Shown: piece after piece, positions 1 through 5,916 of the stretch
Layout: the number at the start of each line of letters is the position of its first letter
Position numbering within the stretch: position 1 is the stretch's first letter
Assembly: GCA_023475455.1 (NCBI GenBank)
Contig: JAMCVR010000069.1
Coordinates: forward strand, 1 to 5,916
Reading direction: 5' to 3'
DNA: 5,916 nt
Source: Thermoplasmatota archaeon
GTDB lineage: Bacteria; Pseudomonadota; Gammaproteobacteria; Burkholderiales; Thiobacillaceae
Position numbers and translations under genes: made by a program
Notes under the pieces: model-generated
What the model was told of the DNA's origin: nothing
Databases searched by the model: none
The model's input: only the letters and a program-made list of their open reading frames with translations

Positions 1-129
1 CGACGTGGATAATTTCAAGCTGATCAACGACAGCCTGGGCCACGACGCCGGCGACAGCCTGCTGAAATTGGTCGGTCAACGCCTGAAAAGCTGCGCTCGC
101 GATACCGACACGGTGGCGCGGATGGGCGG
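1..129 (+). repeat. Direct repeat copy A1: detached GGDEF fragment at the left end
   Basis: This stretch is identical base for base to 494-622. It encodes the central part of the GGDEF domain, from DVDNFK to ARMGG, in the frame that starts at base 2, and ends just before the DEF of the GGDEF motif. At base 130 the sequence switches to the second half of a PAS domain in a different frame. The coding frame downstream (positions divisible by 3) has stop codons inside this stretch, the last at 84-86, so the fragment cannot be read into the PAS-GGDEF-EAL gene. It is either one unit of a tandem duplication or an assembly end artefact, and not an independent gene. Confidence 0.95.
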
Positions 130-1688
130 GCAAAAACCCGCGCATCCTGGGTTCCGGCCGGCAGCCGCCCGAATTTTACAAGGAAATGTGGGCCTCGCTT
201 GGCGAGAATGCGCAATGGCAGGGGGAAATCTGGAATATCCGCAAAGACGGCGATATCTATCCGCAGTGGTTGAACATCAGCCGCGTGTCGGACGAATACG
301 GCAAGGCGATCAATTACGTGGGGGTGTTCAGCGACATCACGGAACGCAAATCGGCCGAGGACCGCATTCTGCACCAGGTTTACTACGATTACCTGACCGA
401 TTTGCCCAACCGTGTGCTCTTCGTGGACCGGCTGAACCAGGCCATCGCCCTGGCCATGCGTCATCCCGAGAACAGCCTCGCGGTGCTGTTTCTCGACGTG
501 GATAATTTCAAGCTGATCAACGACAGCCTGGGCCACGACGCCGGCGACAGCCTGCTGAAATTGGTCGGTCAACGCCTGAAAAGCTGCGCTCGCGATACCG
601 ACACGGTGGCGCGGATGGGCGGCGACGAATTCACCGTCATCCTGACCAAGATCGCGCACGCGGAGGACGCGGCGATCGTCGCCAAGAAAATCCTGGACAG
701 TTTCAGCCTGCCTTTCACGCTGGAGGGCCAGGAGGTATACGCCTCCCTCAGCATTGGCATCAGCCTGTTCCCCGGCGATGGCATCACGTCCGACATATTG
801 CTGAAAAATGCCGATACCGCCATGTATCGCGCCAAGAGCACCGGCGGGATGTGGTACCAGTTGTACAACGAGGAAATGAGTGTGCGCGCGGACGAGCGTC
901 TGTCACTTGTGACCGGGCTGCACAAGGCGCTGCAACGTCACGAACTGGTGCTGCATTACCAACCCCAGTTCGATTTCCAGGGCGGCCGGCTTACAGGCTT
1001 CGAGGCTTTGCTGCGCTGGCAACACCCGCAACGCGGACTGCTCTATCCGGAGGCGTTCATACATCTGGCGGAAGAAACCGGTCTCATCATCCCGATCGGA
1101 AACTGGGTGCTGGAAACCGCCTGCACCCAGGCAAAGATCTGGTGCGAGATGGGCTTTCCCAACCTGGTCATGGCGGTGAACGTGTCCCCGCGCCAGTTCC
1201 AGCACGCCGACCTGGTGAGCCAGGTCATCGCGGCGCTGGAAAAAACGAACCTGCCCCCCAATTGCCTGGAGTTGGAAATTACCGAAAGCATAATCATGCA
1301 GGAAATCGACAACAGTATTCGCATCATGGAGTCGCTGGCGGAACGGGACGTACGGTTCTCGGTGGATGACTTCGGCACCGGCTATTCTTCCCTGGGCTAC
1401 CTGAAGAAACTGCCGATCAACGTCCTCAAGATCGACCGGTCTTTCATCCGGGATATTGCCAGCGATCAGGACGACGCGGCCATCGTCGGCGCCATCATCG
1501 CCATGTCCGACAAACTCGGCCTCCAGGTCGTGTTGGAGGGGGTCGAAAACCACGAACAGCTGGCTCAGCTCAAGGAATATGCCGGAATTCGCATACAGGG
1601 CTTTCTACTCGGGAAACCGCTGACCGCGGCCGGGACGACCGACCTGATCCGCGCCAGGGCCGAAGCCATGCAGACGGCATTACCATAG
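129..1688 (+). CDS. PAS-GGDEF-EAL cyclic-di-GMP synthase/phosphodiesterase, 5' partial
   Basis: This is a cytoplasmic signalling enzyme that may make cyclic-di-GMP (GGDEF) and/or hydrolyse it (EAL). The frame is open from base 87, but recognisable protein begins near 129 with the C-terminal half of a PAS domain (GKNPRILGSGR, then WQGEIWNIRKDG and the closing DITERK). The first ATG, at 186, lies inside the PAS fold and is unlikely to be the true start, so the N-terminus is lost at the repeat junction. Numbering from that ATG, GGDEF is at 145-149 with an RxxD inhibitory site (RDTD, 136-139) five residues before it. The EAL domain spans roughly 252-490 and keeps the expected residues: E273 of EAL, N332 of NVS, E364, D394 and D395 of DDFGTGYS, K415 of LKID, E451 of EGVE and Q471. 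Both domains look catalytically competent, but which activity dominates cannot be read from sequence. It converges on the cytochrome gene with 13 bp between stop codons. Confidence 0.93.
   Translation, partial: GKNPRILGSGRQPPEFYKEMWASLGENAQWQGEIWNIRKDGDIYPQWLNISRVSDEYGKAINYVGVFSDITERKSAEDRILHQVYYDYLTDLPNRVLFVDRLNQAIALAMRHPENSLAVLFLDVDNFKLINDSLGHDAGDSLLKLVGQRLKSCARDTDTVARMGGDEFTVILTKIAHAEDAAIVAKKILDSFSLPFTLEGQEVYASLSIGISLFPGDGITSDILLKNADTAMYRAKSTGGMWYQLYNEEMSVRADERLSLVTGLHKALQRHELVLHYQPQFDFQGGRLTGFEALLRWQHPQRGLLYPEAFIHLAEETGLIIPIGNWVLETACTQAKIWCEMGFPNLVMAVNVSPRQFQHADLVSQVIAALEKTNLPPNCLELEITESIIMQEIDNSIRIMESLAERDVRFSVDDFGTGYSSLGYLKKLPINVLKIDRSFIRDIASDQDDAAIVGAIIAMSDKLGLQVVLEGVENHEQLAQLKEYAGIRIQGFLLGKPLTAAGTTDLIRARAEAMQTALP
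494..622 (+). repeat. Direct repeat copy A2: native GGDEF segment
   Basis: This is the second copy of the 129-bp left-end repeat (offset 493). It sits in frame inside the intact GGDEF domain of the PAS-GGDEF-EAL gene and continues naturally into the DEF residues and the rest of the domain. This is therefore the native location and copy A1 is the misplaced one. Confidence 0.95.
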
Positions 1689-1701: not shown

Positions 1702-2592
1702 TCACTTGTCGTGGCAGGTTTGGCACAGGACACTGTTGTTGTTGGCGACCCGCAGGAACGAAGGATTGAACACGCTGCCGGGGCCGCCGCTGGGCACGCC
1801 GTGCGGATCGTGACAGGACGCGCATTCCACTTCATGGCCTTCGCCGCTGCTGTACAGGCGCACGTTCTTGGGATCGGCGCGGCCGTTGCCGTCGCTGTCG
1901 AAAAACGAGACGCCGCCGACAGTCGCGGTGGGCGGCTTGAAATCCAGCCCCGCCCCGAAAGTCGTTGGGTAGCGGATGCCTACGGGATGGTCATTGGTCA
2001 GGTCGGTGCCGATGGCGAATACGGTGAAATCGGCCGCCAGGGCCGGCCCCGCAGGATTATGGCAAGACAGGCAGCCGGTGGCGTTCAGCGCCTCGTGGTT
2101 ATCGGTCGGATTGCTGCCGCTGGCGTTGCTCCAGGTGTTGAGGAAGGCGTTGTTTTGGGAGGATGCCTGGGCCGCGCTGTACTTTCCGGAGCCGGGCATG
2201 TTGATGATGGAGTCGATCGCCACGGTGCCGTCATGGCAGGACAGGCAGGTGAGCGAATTGACGCCCGGCTGCGTCACCGTCGCGCTGGTGGGACGGTTGT
2301 ACAGCGCGTAGGCGGCGCTGGTCGCGGTGCGGTTCCACAGCGGCGCCGCCACCACCGCGCTCGCGCCGTGGGGGGTGTGGCAGTACACGCACACCTCGCC
2401 ATAGTCGTTGCGGCTCAGATCCATGAAAATCTTTCCCGCGCCTGACATAAAGCTTTGAGTCATATTATGGCGGGTGTTGATAATGCCGCCCTGGTTGAGC
2501 GCCTTGCTGGGCACATCGCCGTCGCCGAAGACGGCCGTCCCCCAGGCGATCAAAACGGCCAGTCCAAGCAGTCGTTCAGCTTTCCCTGTCAT
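1702..2592 (-). CDS. Secreted pentaheme c-type cytochrome
   Basis: This is a 296-residue electron-transfer protein predicted to be exported and to carry five covalent hemes. An N-terminal hydrophobic stretch (about residues 8-22, LLGLAVLIAWGTAVF) acts as a signal peptide. Five CXXCH motifs lie at residues 68-72, 116-120, 174-178, 257-261 and 290-294. The first and fourth continue into the CHTPHG and CHDPHG patterns seen in cytochrome c3-like and doubled-CXXCH multiheme families. Other histidines (for example H42, H166, H202 and H253) are candidate distal ligands. Residues 232-240 form a DxDGNGxxD loop resembling an EF-hand calcium site. The start is well supported by GGAGGT seven bases upstream. 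It is the last visible gene of the minus-strand cluster after the NHL lipoprotein, which suggests an envelope electron-transfer role. Its partners and final location (periplasm or outer surface) are not shown by sequence. Confidence 0.93.
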   Translation of the reverse strand: MTGKAERLLGLAVLIAWGTAVFGDGDVPSKALNQGGIINTRHNMTQSFMSGAGKIFMDLSRNDYGEVCVYCHTPHGASAVVAAPLWNRTATSAAYALYNRPTSATVTQPGVNSLTCLSCHDGTVAIDSIINMPGSGKYSAAQASSQNNAFLNTWSNASGSNPTDNHEALNATGCLSCHNPAGPALAADFTVFAIGTDLTNDHPVGIRYPTTFGAGLDFKPPTATVGGVSFFDSDGNGRADPKNVRLYSSGEGHEVECASCHDPHGVPSGGPGSVFNPSFLRVANNNSVLCQTCHDK

Positions 2593-2620: not shown

Positions 2621-3229
2621 GCAAATCGCGTGCTTTCACAATCGAACAAAGGGAATCAACGGCGCGCGCGGACGACGCGCTCGCCCTCCTCCGCCGACAG
2701 GCGGCGGATCACTTCCACCTTGCGGAAGTACTGGTCCACCACGTATACGCGCCCGGTTTCGTCCACCGCGATGCCGCCCGGCAGGGCGTAACGCCCGGGC
2801 TTGTCGCTGTCGCCGCGCCTCCCCACCGGGAGCAGCAATTGCCCGGCGGGGTTGAACACCTGGAAATTGCCGTAGCCGGCGTCCGTCACGTATATGTTTC
2901 CTTCCCCGTCCACGGCGATGCCGCGCGGGCGCGCGAAATCGCCGAACTCGCTGCCGGCCTTGCCCCAGGTGCGCAAAAACCGGCCATCCCGGTCGAACGC
3001 CTGGACCCGGAAGTTGCCGGAATCCAGCACGTACAGCGTGCCGTCCGGCGCCACCGCGGCTTGCACCGGCACGTTGAACCGTCCCTCGGCGGAGCCGCGC
3101 GTGCCGATGACGAACAACTTGCGCCCGGTGCCGTCGTAGGCGACCACGCGGTGGTTGAGGCTTTCGTTGCTGCTCCGGTCGACGACGTAGACGCGCTCCC
3201 CGGCGGCGTCCACCGCCACCCCGGTCGGC
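2621..3229. repeat. Direct tandem repeat copy B1 (609 bp, offset 607)
   Basis: This stretch is identical to 3228-3836 as far as can be read. Encoded products on both strands match exactly between the copies. The two copies share two bases (GC, 3228-3229), a 2-bp microhomology at the junction. On the minus strand the unit covers the propeller gene from the start of blade 3 through its stop and the first part of the spacer after it. Together with the native flank this gives a perfect head-to-tail duplication. There is no transposase, terminal inverted repeat or target-site duplication. Confidence 0.95.
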
Positions 3230-3246
3230 AAATCGCGTGCTTTCAC
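2656..3246 (-). pseudogene. Truncated tandem copy of the NHL propeller gene (blades 3-6)
   Basis: This is a 196-codon open frame whose residues from PTGVAVDAAG to the stop are identical to the last 190 residues of the complete propeller gene just upstream. Its first six codons (MKARDL, from a GTG) come from what is normally the non-coding spacer after that gene. It lacks the lipoprotein signal and blades 1 and 2, and no Shine-Dalgarno-like sequence precedes the GTG, so a stable secreted product is unlikely. It fills most of the 670-bp interval between the complete propeller gene and the cytochrome gene; without the duplication that spacer would be only 63 bp. It may be a genuine gene remnant or an assembly product. 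Confidence 0.8.
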
Positions 3247-3836
3247 AATCGAACAAAGGGAATCAACGGCGCGCGCGGACGACGCGCTCGCCCTCCTCCG
3301 CCGACAGGCGGCGGATCACTTCCACCTTGCGGAAGTACTGGTCCACCACGTATACGCGCCCGGTTTCGTCCACCGCGATGCCGCCCGGCAGGGCGTAACG
3401 CCCGGGCTTGTCGCTGTCGCCGCGCCTCCCCACCGGGAGCAGCAATTGCCCGGCGGGGTTGAACACCTGGAAATTGCCGTAGCCGGCGTCCGTCACGTAT
3501 ATGTTTCCTTCCCCGTCCACGGCGATGCCGCGCGGGCGCGCGAAATCGCCGAACTCGCTGCCGGCCTTGCCCCAGGTGCGCAAAAACCGGCCATCCCGGT
3601 CGAACGCCTGGACCCGGAAGTTGCCGGAATCCAGCACGTACAGCGTGCCGTCCGGCGCCACCGCGGCTTGCACCGGCACGTTGAACCGTCCCTCGGCGGA
3701 GCCGCGCGTGCCGATGACGAACAACTTGCGCCCGGTGCCGTCGTAGGCGACCACGCGGTGGTTGAGGCTTTCGTTGCTGCTCCGGTCGACGACGTAGACG
3801 CGCTCCCCGGCGGCGTCCACCGCCACCCCGGTCGGC
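3228..3836. repeat. Direct tandem repeat copy B2 (609 bp, offset 607)
   Basis: This is the copy embedded in the intact propeller gene. Its right edge falls between the codons for R192 and P193 of the lipoprotein, where the gene continues naturally upstream. Its left edge is the duplication junction with copy B1. The absence of any visible difference between copies means the event is very recent, maintained by gene conversion, or artificial. Confidence 0.95.
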
Positions 3837-4411
3837 CGCTCCAGATCGGCTTCGCCGCCGATCTCCCGCAAATACAGCCCGAGGCTGTCGTATACCACCA
3901 CCTTGCGCGCGCTCACGTCCGCCACGTACACGCGCATCTTCCCGTCCAGGGCGATGCCGACCGGCTTCAGCAGGGTTCCCGGCGGGCGCAATCCCATGTG
4001 GAAAAACCTGCGCCGCGGCACGTCGAACACGGCCACGCTGCGCGTGACGGTGTCCGTGACATAAATCCTGCCCATGCGCGCCGCCACCCCGAACGGCTTT
4101 TCGAAAGCCGGTCGCGGGTCCGCGTCTCCCGCAACCAGGCGCCGGAAACGGTCGGCTTCATTGTTCTCGACGAGATCCGACGGGTTGCGTAGCGCCGTCT
4201 CGAACGCAAAGCGCGGCGTCTCCGGGGGCGTCGGCCAATAAAGCGCCGGCGCGTCCGCATGTCGGTCGAGCGTGCCCGTGCATGCGCCGAGCGCAACGGC
4301 CAGCCCCAGCGCGAGCAGCGTAGCGGAGTGGCGCAACCGCTTCGGGTTGAGCGCTTCGCGGACAGCGTTTTCCGCGTTACGCCGCTTCCGGAATATTCGC
4401 ACGGGGAACAT
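3263..4411 (-). CDS. NHL-repeat six-bladed beta-propeller lipoprotein
   Basis: This is a predicted envelope lipoprotein of up to 382 residues. A hydrophobic segment (about 31-43) ends in the lipobox LGAC with C44 as the lipidated cysteine. The mature protein starts with a YWPTPPETPRF segment, then six NHL-type repeats at roughly 103-140, 146-185, 191-234, 243-281, 290-328 and 340-370. Each follows the pattern P-x-G-(I/V)-A-(V/L)-D ... (I/V)-Y-V-x-D ... V-x-(A/V)-(F/Y)-D, enough for one closed six-bladed propeller. Such propellers usually bind proteins or scaffolds and are not enzymes. From the ATG at 4411 the gene overlaps the cyclase gene by 35 bp, suggesting translational coupling. The leader is long; a TTG at residue 26 would give a more typical signal (C at position 19), so the start is uncertain. 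Sitting between a heme-sensing cyclase and a multiheme cytochrome, it may help organise an envelope redox complex (inference). Confidence 0.9.
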   Translation of the reverse strand: MFPVRIFRKRRNAENAVREALNPKRLRHSATLLALGLAVALGACTGTLDRHADAPALYWPTPPETPRFAFETALRNPSDLVENNEADRFRRLVAGDADPRPAFEKPFGVAARMGRIYVTDTVTRSVAVFDVPRRRFFHMGLRPPGTLLKPVGIALDGKMRVYVADVSARKVVVYDSLGLYLREIGGEADLERPTGVAVDAAGERVYVVDRSSNESLNHRVVAYDGTGRKLFVIGTRGSAEGRFNVPVQAAVAPDGTLYVLDSGNFRVQAFDRDGRFLRTWGKAGSEFGDFARPRGIAVDGEGNIYVTDAGYGNFQVFNPAGQLLLPVGRRGDSDKPGRYALPGGIAVDETGRVYVVDQYFRKVEVIRRLSAEEGERVVRARR

Positions 4412-5789
4412 CGTTCCTGTCGGTGCTAATCACCACCCGGTTCCGCCCCAACTCCTTGGCCCGGTACAGGGCTTCATCGGCCCGGCGGATGATGTCCTCG
4501 GCCCGGTCTTCGCCGCTGCACAGCAAGGCTCCGCCCACGCTGACGGTAATGTTCAGCGGGGTGTTCCCCTGGTCGATCATGACCGGAGAGGCGGCGACGC
4601 AAGCGCGGAACGCTTCCGCCGCTTCCGCCAGTTTCACGGCATCGGCACCGGGCAGGATAATCATGAATTCCTCGCCGCCGTAGCGTGTCAGGACGTCCGA
4701 CTTGCGCGCCCGGTTCAGCAGGCGCGCGCTGATTTCCCGCAGTACGCAGTCACCCGCTTGATGTCCATGGTTGTCGTTGACGGCCTTGAAGTGATCCAGG
4801 TCCAACATCAATACGCCGAGCGGAGCCGCGTGACGTTCCGCGTAATAGATCGCTTCGTTGAGGCGGGCAAGCCCGTAGTTCTTGGCGCGCAAACCGGTCA
4901 GCCCATCGGTGATGGCATTGGTGTAATGGCGGGCGTTCTGCAGGGCGAGGCCGATGTGCGCCGACAGATTGCGCAGCAGCTTGTCGTCCAGAAGGGAGAG
5001 TACCTCTGCCGCGAAGCCGCAGCCCGCCAGCAGCGCCACCAAACGCTCGCCATCGAAGAACGGGATCACGAAATACCATTGCCCCTCGATCGAATGTTGC
5101 ATTTCCGTCCGCTGCGCACAAGCCTCGCCCACCAGCGTCGGGGGAATGCGCGCCAGCGCCGGGCATTCTTCCATGCGCCCGGTCCCGCAGACATGGGGTT
5201 CCTCGCCGCCCGCTCCGGCCACGCTGCAGCACCACCCTGCCTTGCCGCTTTCCACGCAGAACACCAGCAGGCTGAGCGGCAGCCGGTCGCGCAGAATCAT
5301 CAGCACGATGGACTGCACATCCGTCACGTGCAGGCTGCGGCTGGCTTCCACCATGATGGCGTAGAGCAGGCCGAGCTCCTTATTGGTGCGCTCCATCGCC
5401 GCCATCTGCTCCTCGATCTGCGCCGCCATCTGGTTGAAGCGCTTGGTCAGCAGCCCGAGTTCGTCGCGCCGCCGCACCGGAACCCGCGTGTCCATGTCGC
5501 CGCGGGTGATCGCTGATGCCGCTTTGGCCAGGGCGCGCACGGGCTTGTGGACCAGGTAACGCAACAGCAACGCGACCATCGCCAGCATCGCCAGGGCGGA
5601 GGCGGCGGCGATAGCCAGCACCAGCCGGTTCCGCTGCGCCGCCGCCCGCTCTGCCGGCGCGCGATCGAAATCGATCGCGATCATGCCGCGGAACGCCTCG
5701 GGCCGGGTGTGGCAGCGGGCGCAGGCAGGCTGCTTGGGGATCGGGCTGAGGACGCGCAGCAGAGGGCTGCCGTCGGCGGCGCGGAATTC
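4377..5789 (-). CDS. Membrane diguanylate cyclase with periplasmic heme-c, HAMP, GAF and GGDEF domains, N-terminus missing
   Basis: This is a transmembrane receptor predicted to make cyclic-di-GMP from GTP in response to a periplasmic signal. An ATG at 5684 opens 435 residues, but the frame continues upstream through 35 more codons that match a known sensor pattern: LLRVLSPIPKQPACARCH, with CARCH at 5709-5723, a heme-c attachment motif, followed by RGMIAIDFD before the membrane. The true start therefore lies beyond 5789 and is cut off by the right-end repeat. Numbering from the ATG at 5684: transmembrane helix about 21-41, HAMP about 42-97, linker helix, a GAF-like region about 105-255 with seven cysteines, and GGDEF about 258-420. 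The active site is GGEEF (336-340, bases 4665-4679), with an RxxD inhibitory site (RKSD, 327-330) five residues earlier. The gene overlaps the downstream lipoprotein gene. Heme attachment and GAF assignment are from motifs and order; a ligand cannot be named. Confidence 0.92.
   Translation of the reverse strand, partial: EFRAADGSPLLRVLSPIPKQPACARCHTRPEAFRGMIAIDFDRAPAERAAAQRNRLVLAIAAASALAMLAMVALLLRYLVHKPVRALAKAASAITRGDMDTRVPVRRRDELGLLTKRFNQMAAQIEEQMAAMERTNKELGLLYAIMVEASRSLHVTDVQSIVLMILRDRLPLSLLVFCVESGKAGWCCSVAGAGGEEPHVCGTGRMEECPALARIPPTLVGEACAQRTEMQHSIEGQWYFVIPFFDGERLVALLAGCGFAAEVLSLLDDKLLRNLSAHIGLALQNARHYTNAITDGLTGLRAKNYGLARLNEAIYYAERHAAPLGVLMLDLDHFKAVNDNHGHQAGDCVLREISARLLNRARKSDVLTRYGGEEFMIILPGADAVKLAEAAEAFRACVAASPVMIDQGNTPLNITVSVGGALLCSGEDRAEDIIRRADEALYRAKELGRNRVVISTDRNDVPRANIPEAA
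5549..5675. repeat. Direct repeat copy C1 (127 bp): native membrane-helix segment
   Basis: This is identical to 5790-5916 (offset 241). It is in its native place inside the cyclase gene, where it encodes the transmembrane helix and the residues just before it in frame. Confidence 0.95.
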
Positions 5790-5916
5790 GGACCAGGTAA
5801 CGCAACAGCAACGCGACCATCGCCAGCATCGCCAGGGCGGAGGCGGCGGCGATAGCCAGCACCAGCCGGTTCCGCTGCGCCGCCGCCCGCTCTGCCGGCG
5901 CGCGATCGAAATCGAT
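5790..5916. repeat. Direct repeat copy C2 (127 bp) at the right end
   Basis: This is a perfect 127-bp copy of 5549-5675 running exactly to the last base of the window. It follows the heme-motif region of the cyclase directly, where the missing N-terminal coding sequence should be, and in the wrong frame: read in the cyclase frame it gives Cys/Trp/Arg-rich nonsense. The exact 127-bp length ending at the sequence end suggests a de Bruijn-graph end overlap, although a real 241-bp tandem duplication is not excluded. Confidence 0.95.

Follow-up and report, generated by a model that had tools for sequence, protein, structure and literature searches.

A diguanylate cyclase with a predicted Cache heme-c sensor, usually of two hemes, encoded beside multiheme cytochrome genes

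The stretch of DNA analysed here (the window, 5,916 nucleotides in its entirety) contains on its minus strand the last three quarters of a gene whose product is predicted to be a Cache–HAMP–GAF-like–GGDEF diguanylate cyclase, usually endowed with two hemes. Judging from the intact relatives, it is rather probable that this product is an inner-membrane diguanylate cyclase with a Cache sensor, in most cases a two-heme one, and that what it most likely senses is how oxidised or reduced the periplasmic electron-transfer chain is; the cyclase may report the state of the electron supply of the cell. For bacteria that feed on electrons from minerals or electrodes and must choose whether to settle there, a two-heme cyclase encoded beside cytochromes offers a testable link between external electron supply and a biofilm signal.

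The interrupted gene and its apparent start

On the minus strand an open reading frame terminates at 4377; its first ATG lies at 5684, and the frame meets no stop further upstream as far as the contig end. Positions 5685-5789 provide exactly 35 codons above this ATG, encoding PIPKQPACARCH / EFRAADGSPLLRVLSPIPKQPACARCHTRPEAFRG, with CARCH coded at 5723-5709; both the open frame and the alignment described below confirm the claim of the initial annotation that the same frame continues for 35 codons above the ATG and contains a CXXCH. In the six frames of the window this motif occurs six times, five of them in the frame of a pentaheme cytochrome and one in that of the cyclase.

BLASTP with the 470-residue product, for which the best 120 of 7084 proteins at E ≤0.001 were listed, returned as top match P0001 (617 amino acids, 99% identical over 100% of the query), followed by P0002–P0005 (78–87% identical). 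In alignment A1, which comprises the top 16 homologues and the window, the latter begins at residue 148 of P0001, and what is missing from it by comparison with P0001 is the N-terminal membrane helix, most of the periplasmic domain and the first CXXCH, present in P0001 as ECARCH (C132, C135, H136). The N-terminus of this uninterrupted orthologue thus extends some 147 residues beyond the window, with CXXCH kept. The features of the gene are the following.

4377..5789, minus strand: membrane diguanylate cyclase gene, 3′ part; 470 codons and stop, corresponding to residues 148-617 of P0001
5685..5789, minus strand: Cache heme sensor domain, C-terminal part (P0001 residues 148-182), predicted from the open frame, the alignment and the predicted fold of the domain of relative locus L001
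5709..5723, minus strand: CARCH, putative heme-c attachment motif of the window (C170, C173, H174 of P0001), aligning with the heme site of GSU0582
5682..5684, minus strand: ATG that looks like a start codon but encodes an internal Met (M183 of P0001) within the sensor's final strand
5565..5630, minus strand: second transmembrane helix, approximately residues 201-222 of P0001, predicted from hydropathy and the model helix 191-242
5409..5564, minus strand: HAMP domain (Pfam PF00672, 57.6 bits in the window protein)
4917..5333, minus strand: GAF-like linker domain, approximately residues 300-438 of P0001, from the secondary structure of the model and below the Pfam cut-off
4437..4916, minus strand: GGDEF diguanylate cyclase domain (PF00990, positions 1-161 of 161, 148 bits)
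5790..5916, no strand: contig-end duplicate of 5549-5675, exact over its 127 bases; not a genuine 5′ part of the cyclase gene
1..129 and 494..622: exact direct repeat of 129 bases at the contig end
2621..3229 and 3228..3836: exact direct repeat of 609 bases, internal

The last three entries are the only repeats detected in the window by a script that scans for exact repeats of at least 25 bases. Because 5790-5916 repeats 5549-5675 exactly, genuine reading of the cyclase stops at 5789; over 5790-5916 the aligned intact relatives differ from the window, and the open frame found above 5789 (SISIARRQSG...) was rejected as protein, being the contig-end repeat read in another frame. The gene's own 5′ part is absent from the window. 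All three direct repeats are likely assembly artefacts, the 609-base one because it has no counterpart in L001, and the two copies at the ends are unsuitable for gene calling.

A gene start at Met 5684 was also rejected. None of the 16 top homologues uses this Met as a start, P0010 beginning at Met75 and the others earlier, and all 16 reach further upstream and carry the CXXCH there, which supports the earlier contention that an annotation from 5684 would miss a heme-c sensor. Such a start would delete the first transmembrane helix (TM1) together with the sensor domain, and an ATG-based annotation of the window would yield a HAMP–GGDEF protein stripped of its heme domain; more generally, start-codon calls made on gene fragments can conceal heme sensors. 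The segment initially proposed as a sensor is genuine but constitutes only the tail of the domain, the intact relatives having a full Cache domain and, in most cases, a second CXXCH. By comparison with relative locus L006, the dN/dS of the 35 codons is 0.35 and that of the remainder of the gene 0.33; by comparison with L001, the 35 codons display three nonsynonymous and no synonymous changes, hence no ratio, the remainder giving 0.37.

Domain order, heme motifs and kinship of the sensor

The full-length model of P0001 (pLDDT 81.8, pTM 0.43) consists in order of a helix (17-75), the sensor, a second helix (191-242), the GAF-like region and the GGDEF domain. In P0001, the one protein for which membrane helices were computed, hydropathy windows above 1.6 lie at 18-49 and 201-228, with two short further peaks within the GAF-like region, for which weak Pfam GAF matches occur in P0001 and several relatives. 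The GGDEF domain is full-length with a canonical signature, from which c-di-GMP synthesis is predicted; its active site reads GGEEF and has an RxxD five residues earlier (motif RKSDVLARYGGEEF in P0001, RKSDVLTRYGGEEF in the window), the pattern of product-inhibited cyclases.

The two cysteines and the histidine of the window's motif are invariant in A1. This CXXCH is kept in 16/16 top homologues and both motifs in 13/16, since the first motif is missing from P0015 and P0016 and in P0003 gives way to a disturbed stretch. The cyclase gene of L002 (10001-11846) lies in two frames, split between the two CXXCH motifs, and these split frames, as well as the disturbed stretch of P0003, may be due to a sequencing error or to a real frameshift. 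CXXCH is found in 21 of the best 120 of the 7084 BLASTP matches and, when the full-length listing is combined with a search made with the P0001 sensor, in 24 of 123 proteins, 19 having two and five (P0003, P0015, P0016, P0074 and P0123) having one; the single motif of P0015, P0016 and P0123 aligns with that of the window. Furthermore, throughout 50 sensor rows (the top 17 BLASTP matches, P0023, P0027, P0029 and the matches of both sensor-only searches) Met75 and the window's motif are kept without exception, the upstream motif being present in 46.

Prediction gives the sensor a single Cache fold in which the CXXCH helix is inserted between late strands. In the model of the L001 sensor (pLDDT 84) there are helices at both motifs, and the CXXCH helix (124-128) is flanked by strands 112-121 and 136-145. 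A structure search with this model is led by WalK, DctB and CitA, whose periplasmic sensor domains we take to be of the Cache type, and also retrieves GSU0935 (3b42; E 1.4e-4, 19% identity). A profile of 17 sensor rows run against the PDB with hmmsearch has as its first match GSU0582 (3b47, E 4.3e-6), followed by GSU0935 (3b42, E 1.1e-3), and thereby bears out the resemblance, initially suggested, to the heme-c sensors of HAMP kinases and chemoreceptors. In the 3b47 match, whose domain E-value is 1.8e-4 and whose alignment accuracy is 0.64 and low near the Met, the window's CXXCH aligns with the CQSCH of GSU0582 and Met75 with chain position 26, that is Met60 counting from His143. Met75 thus probably occupies the position of this known heme ligand, an equivalence which the low accuracy near the Met and the short 3b42 match, spanning profile positions 104-151 only, leave probable rather than firm.

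Foldseek superposes the model poorly on 3b42 and 3b47 (TM 0.28-0.41), and neither GSU0582 nor GSU0935 is among the 50 VIA-align rows; the sensors of these two proteins form swapped dimers (PMC3460858), which may account for the poor superposition. As to family names, P0001 scores 15.5 bits for Tll0287-like (cut-off 24.1) and 15.1 for Mcp40H-20_sensor (cut-off 27), the best scores of eight relatives being 17.4 and 21.6, respectively, against the same cut-offs, and no Pfam or NCBIfam name is given to the sensor above cut-off in the proteins scanned, one of the scans covering 25 of 40-54 families per cyclase. PF21563, Mcp40H-20_sensor, is presumably the Pfam family of the GSU0582 and GSU0935 sensors. 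Since the scores remain below the Pfam cut-offs and yet our own profile reaches GSU0582, what we claim is homology to the covalent-heme Cache sensors, as judged by profile and alignment, and not Pfam membership. With sCache_heme/DUF3365-Tll0287 (PF11845), GSU0582 and GSU0935 the cyclase sensor would share a periplasmic single Cache fold preceding HAMP, a CXXCH ahead of the last strand and a Met in the helix that precedes the first one. On the other hand, the cyclase relatives have an extra CXXCH 38 residues upstream, of which there is none in the aligned part of 3b47, and whereas GSU0582 and GSU0935 are chemoreceptors the output of the cyclase is a GGDEF domain.

The search with the P0001 sensor alone returned 14 proteins. 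When the sensor of P0023, which also has two motifs but is less closely related, served as query, 29 were returned, among which P0149 and P0150 have histidine-kinase domains. In the order sample of 399 genomes the 17-row sensor profile has matches in 13 (nine candidates scored per genome) and a P0001-type cyclase, at E up to 1e-80, is found in five (three candidates scored per genome); no match was obtained on plasmids at E 1e-60. Besides A1, use was made of alignments A2, A3 and A4, of 23, 22 and 17 hand-picked rows, and of a tree of 33 picked rows in which long branches were flagged. In this tree five one-motif rows (P0015, P0016, P0123, L017 and L018) form a clade with support 100/100 that nests among two-motif rows (nodes 89/80 and 91/89), the one-motif L009 standing apart on a long branch. 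The nesting suggests that the upstream motif was probably lost in the five-row clade, and the existence of a clade without it implies that two hemes are not essential.

Gene neighbourhood and the Uet-like cluster

In addition to the cyclase, the window encodes three further products.

3263..4411, minus strand: NHL beta-propeller protein (ORF and Pfam; same order in L001)
1702..2592, minus strand: pentaheme doubled-CXXCH cytochrome (PF09699, five CXXCH), third gene of a probable operon
186..1688, plus strand: PAS–GGDEF–EAL protein, converging (Pfam, with PAS below cut-off), its 5′ end disturbed by the contig-end repeat

The last 35 bases of the cyclase gene are shared with the predicted start of the NHL gene, so that the two probably belong to one operon. 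The order cyclase–NHL–pentaheme is kept in L001 at 82–88% identity, with a single NHL gene between cyclase and cytochrome, and the homologues of the pentaheme cytochrome (82%) and of the PAS–GGDEF–EAL protein (88%) occupy the same positions; upstream of the L001 cyclase the contig, before it ends, encodes a same-strand diheme cytochrome (1842-2333) as well as a divergent NHL protein. A triheme c7 cytochrome gene divergent from, and adjoining, the cyclase is found in L004 (9190-9876, minus strand) and L005 (7377-6838, minus strand), and L003 has at the equivalent divergent place beside the cyclase a triheme c7 fragment (9881-9711, minus strand; 70% identity over 57 residues), only the last part of the gene being found in one frame. 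A c-type cytochrome gene or fragment therefore lies within a few genes of the cyclase in 6/6 relative loci, counting L006 and L002, in which the cyclase is divergent from genes for an NHL protein, a tetraheme cytochrome, a PPIase, a long barrel-like protein, triheme c7 proteins, two NHL proteins and an 11-heme cytochrome, the latter cut by the contig end in L002. The triheme c7 proteins of the L004, L005 and L003 type are 28–43% identical to those of L006 and L002 over 83-149 residues. The barrel-like protein has 788-847 amino acids in these two loci; neither Pfam nor NCBIfam matches the 788-residue one of L006, which we take to be barrel-like from its position in the cluster and its general look.

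By their list of parts, the divergent clusters of L006 and L002 can be likened to the Uet (undecaheme electron transfer) cluster described in Tenderiales and some Gallionella, whose parts are UetJ (undecaheme), UetA (tetraheme), UetDEG (triheme), UetB (PPIase), UetHI (NHL) and UetC (barrel) (PMC10734462). The window, which does not reach upstream of the cyclase, differs from the Uet cluster in having only one NHL gene and the pentaheme cytochrome gene out of such genes. Of the Uet-like parts, L003, L004 and L005 show beside the cyclase no more than the triheme c7 gene or its fragment.

Taken across genomes, the cyclase and Uet are only weakly linked. A UetC-type protein is found in 12/399 genomes of the order sample (two candidates scored per genome), and ten of these 12 have no P0001-type cyclase at the cut used, the two proteins occurring together in two genomes only (G003 and G006) of the 399, or in three if the wider sensor profile, with its 13/399 genomes, is considered instead. 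Among 26 genomes examined UetC-type proteins are present in four (G002, G003, G005 and G006), all of them cyclase carriers, two other carriers (G001 and G004) being without. GGDEF frames are present in 7/15 Uet-type loci (L054, L056–L058 and L060–L070, with L001, L071 and L072 left out); set beside a background of 19–31 profile matches, mostly GGDEF, per genome of 1.9–3.9 Mb, this count, which includes near relatives, hints at an excess over expectation.

The NHL–pentaheme pair is situated directly before Uet-type genes in L058 (7007-9070) and 2.4 kb before them in L060 (938-3115), an arrangement which suggests that the pair is an accessory module of a Uet-type cluster. In genome G346, which is outside the 12 with UetC, NHL, pentaheme and tetraheme genes are found at a contig end, and no Uet-type cluster is evident, from frames and CXXCH counts, in the 19 kb around the pentaheme homologues of G006:C51. 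A MASE3–PAS–GGDEF–EAL gene lies on the same strand directly upstream of another Uet-type cluster in L055 (13516-16851, minus strand) and likewise in L068.

Probable signal, rival readings and known systems

The order of parts predicted for the intact protein is TM1, a periplasmic Cache domain with (mostly) two CXXCH heme-c sites, a second transmembrane helix, HAMP, the GAF-like region and GGDEF. Heme binding at the CXXCH sites would imply attachment by the cytochrome c maturation machinery at the window's motif, where the ligands may be His174 and an exchangeable Met75, and likewise at the upstream motif where present; the upstream heme would probably act as an electron entry relay or set the working potential. 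A redox (or ligand) change at the heme would shift the Cache dimer, and the shift would pass via the second transmembrane helix and HAMP to the GGDEF pair, with a change in c-di-GMP that could govern whether cells attach to an external electron source or form a biofilm on it. A precedent for the ligand exchange is GSU0935, in which one heme of the dimer is ligated by His144/Met60 and signalling is proposed to occur through a ligand switch tied to redox state (PMC8396549).

A bolder version, which we hold to be possible though doubtful, makes of the cyclase an electron-flow meter of extracellular electron uptake: the upstream heme would be reduced by neighbouring cytochromes of the periplasm (triheme or tetraheme proteins of the Uet type) and would in turn reduce the Cache heme, at which the Met ligand would switch with redox state, so that c-di-GMP would follow the electron supply from minerals or a cathode. 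If true, a conduit in the outer membrane would in effect be wired directly to a second messenger.

The same architecture could instead respond to nitric oxide (or CO), NO displacing the distal ligand of the window's heme and thereby altering the c-di-GMP output, and this we consider unlikely but the foremost rival of redox sensing. Indeed, NO and CO bind to the hemes of GSU0582 and GSU0935 in place of Met60 (PMC8396549), the ligand with which Met75 aligns; a HAMP-linked heme Cache protein is described as releasing NO slowly and forming no stable oxy complex, and NO sensing has been proposed for signal-fused members of the heme Cache group (PMC12889525). However, the identified neighbours of the cyclase are cytochrome and NHL genes in 6/6 relative loci (one cytochrome being a fragment), and gas binding needs no second heme site; on account of these neighbours and of the second heme, redox is preferred over NO sensing.

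That the heme-binding domain is mainly an electron carrier or a relic, the cyclase being controlled by the GAF-like domain or by partner proteins, appears quite improbable: stand-alone heme Cache proteins do seem redox-like rather than sensory (PMC12889525) and the GAF-like region is present though weak, but in the aligned rows of ~600 amino acids the heme domain stands ahead of HAMP and GGDEF, where an input domain is normally found. Finally, two Cys and a His could bind a metal or form a disulfide, or be there by chance, and an ATG with an open frame does exist at 5684, yet a gene truly beginning there is hardly credible in view of the upstream extension and conserved motif of all 16 top homologues, of the cost of TM1 and the domain, and of the covalent-heme domains that are the first matches of the profile.

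Several elements of the redox reading have precedents. Heme-c Cache domains fused to GGDEF/EAL enzymes are already published in PMC12889525, and a word search of its main text for two-CXXCH or diheme domains gives no match; also published is a cyclase with a heme-binding periplasmic CHASE4 domain (PMC13277305). Signal-transduction proteins with additional or two c-type heme motifs are likewise published, namely GSU0591 and GSU0599 of Geobacter and Adeh_2011 and Adeh_3383 of Anaeromyxobacter (PMC3831638, PMC8396549); compared by description, GSU0599 is a two-component protein and GSU0591 belongs to a cytochrome family, neither being a diguanylate cyclase (PMC8396549). DgcO, PdeO, PdeC and PA14_53310 share with the cyclase a heme or redox input to c-di-GMP (PMC8846402, PMC13277305) and differ from it in that this input is a protoglobin or PAS heme, a disulfide, or heme added to a periplasmic CHASE4; in the rows considered of the redox-sensor table of PMC8846402 no CXXCH heme-c sensor appears.

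What is apparently new is the combination of a two-motif heme sensor with GGDEF, placed beside cytochrome genes in 6/6 relative loci, two of which apparently carry a Uet-like extracellular-electron cluster. Two-motif heme sensors of Geobacter and Anaeromyxobacter were reportedly the subject of work by Londer in 2006. Searched by title and abstract, and for the most part outside subscription papers, the literature yielded neither a two-heme Cache cyclase nor a Uet-tied cyclase.

Proteins with a single CXXCH were met on several occasions. A cluster named “diguanylate cyclase with PAS/PAC sensor”, with one CXXCH, is recorded in 36/87 iron-oxidiser genomes (PMC10734462). A different GGDEF protein of ~644-666 amino acids with one CXXCH (PNCLQCH) is encoded in L009, L010, L011, L012 and L014, that is in five genomes of the family of G006, and in L014 a two-CXXCH protein is encoded near it. 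In L019–L024, L027 and L028 proteins of 542-625 amino acids with one CXXCH and without a GGDEF motif match the sensor profile, that of L019 being a HAMP–HisKA–HATPase kinase.
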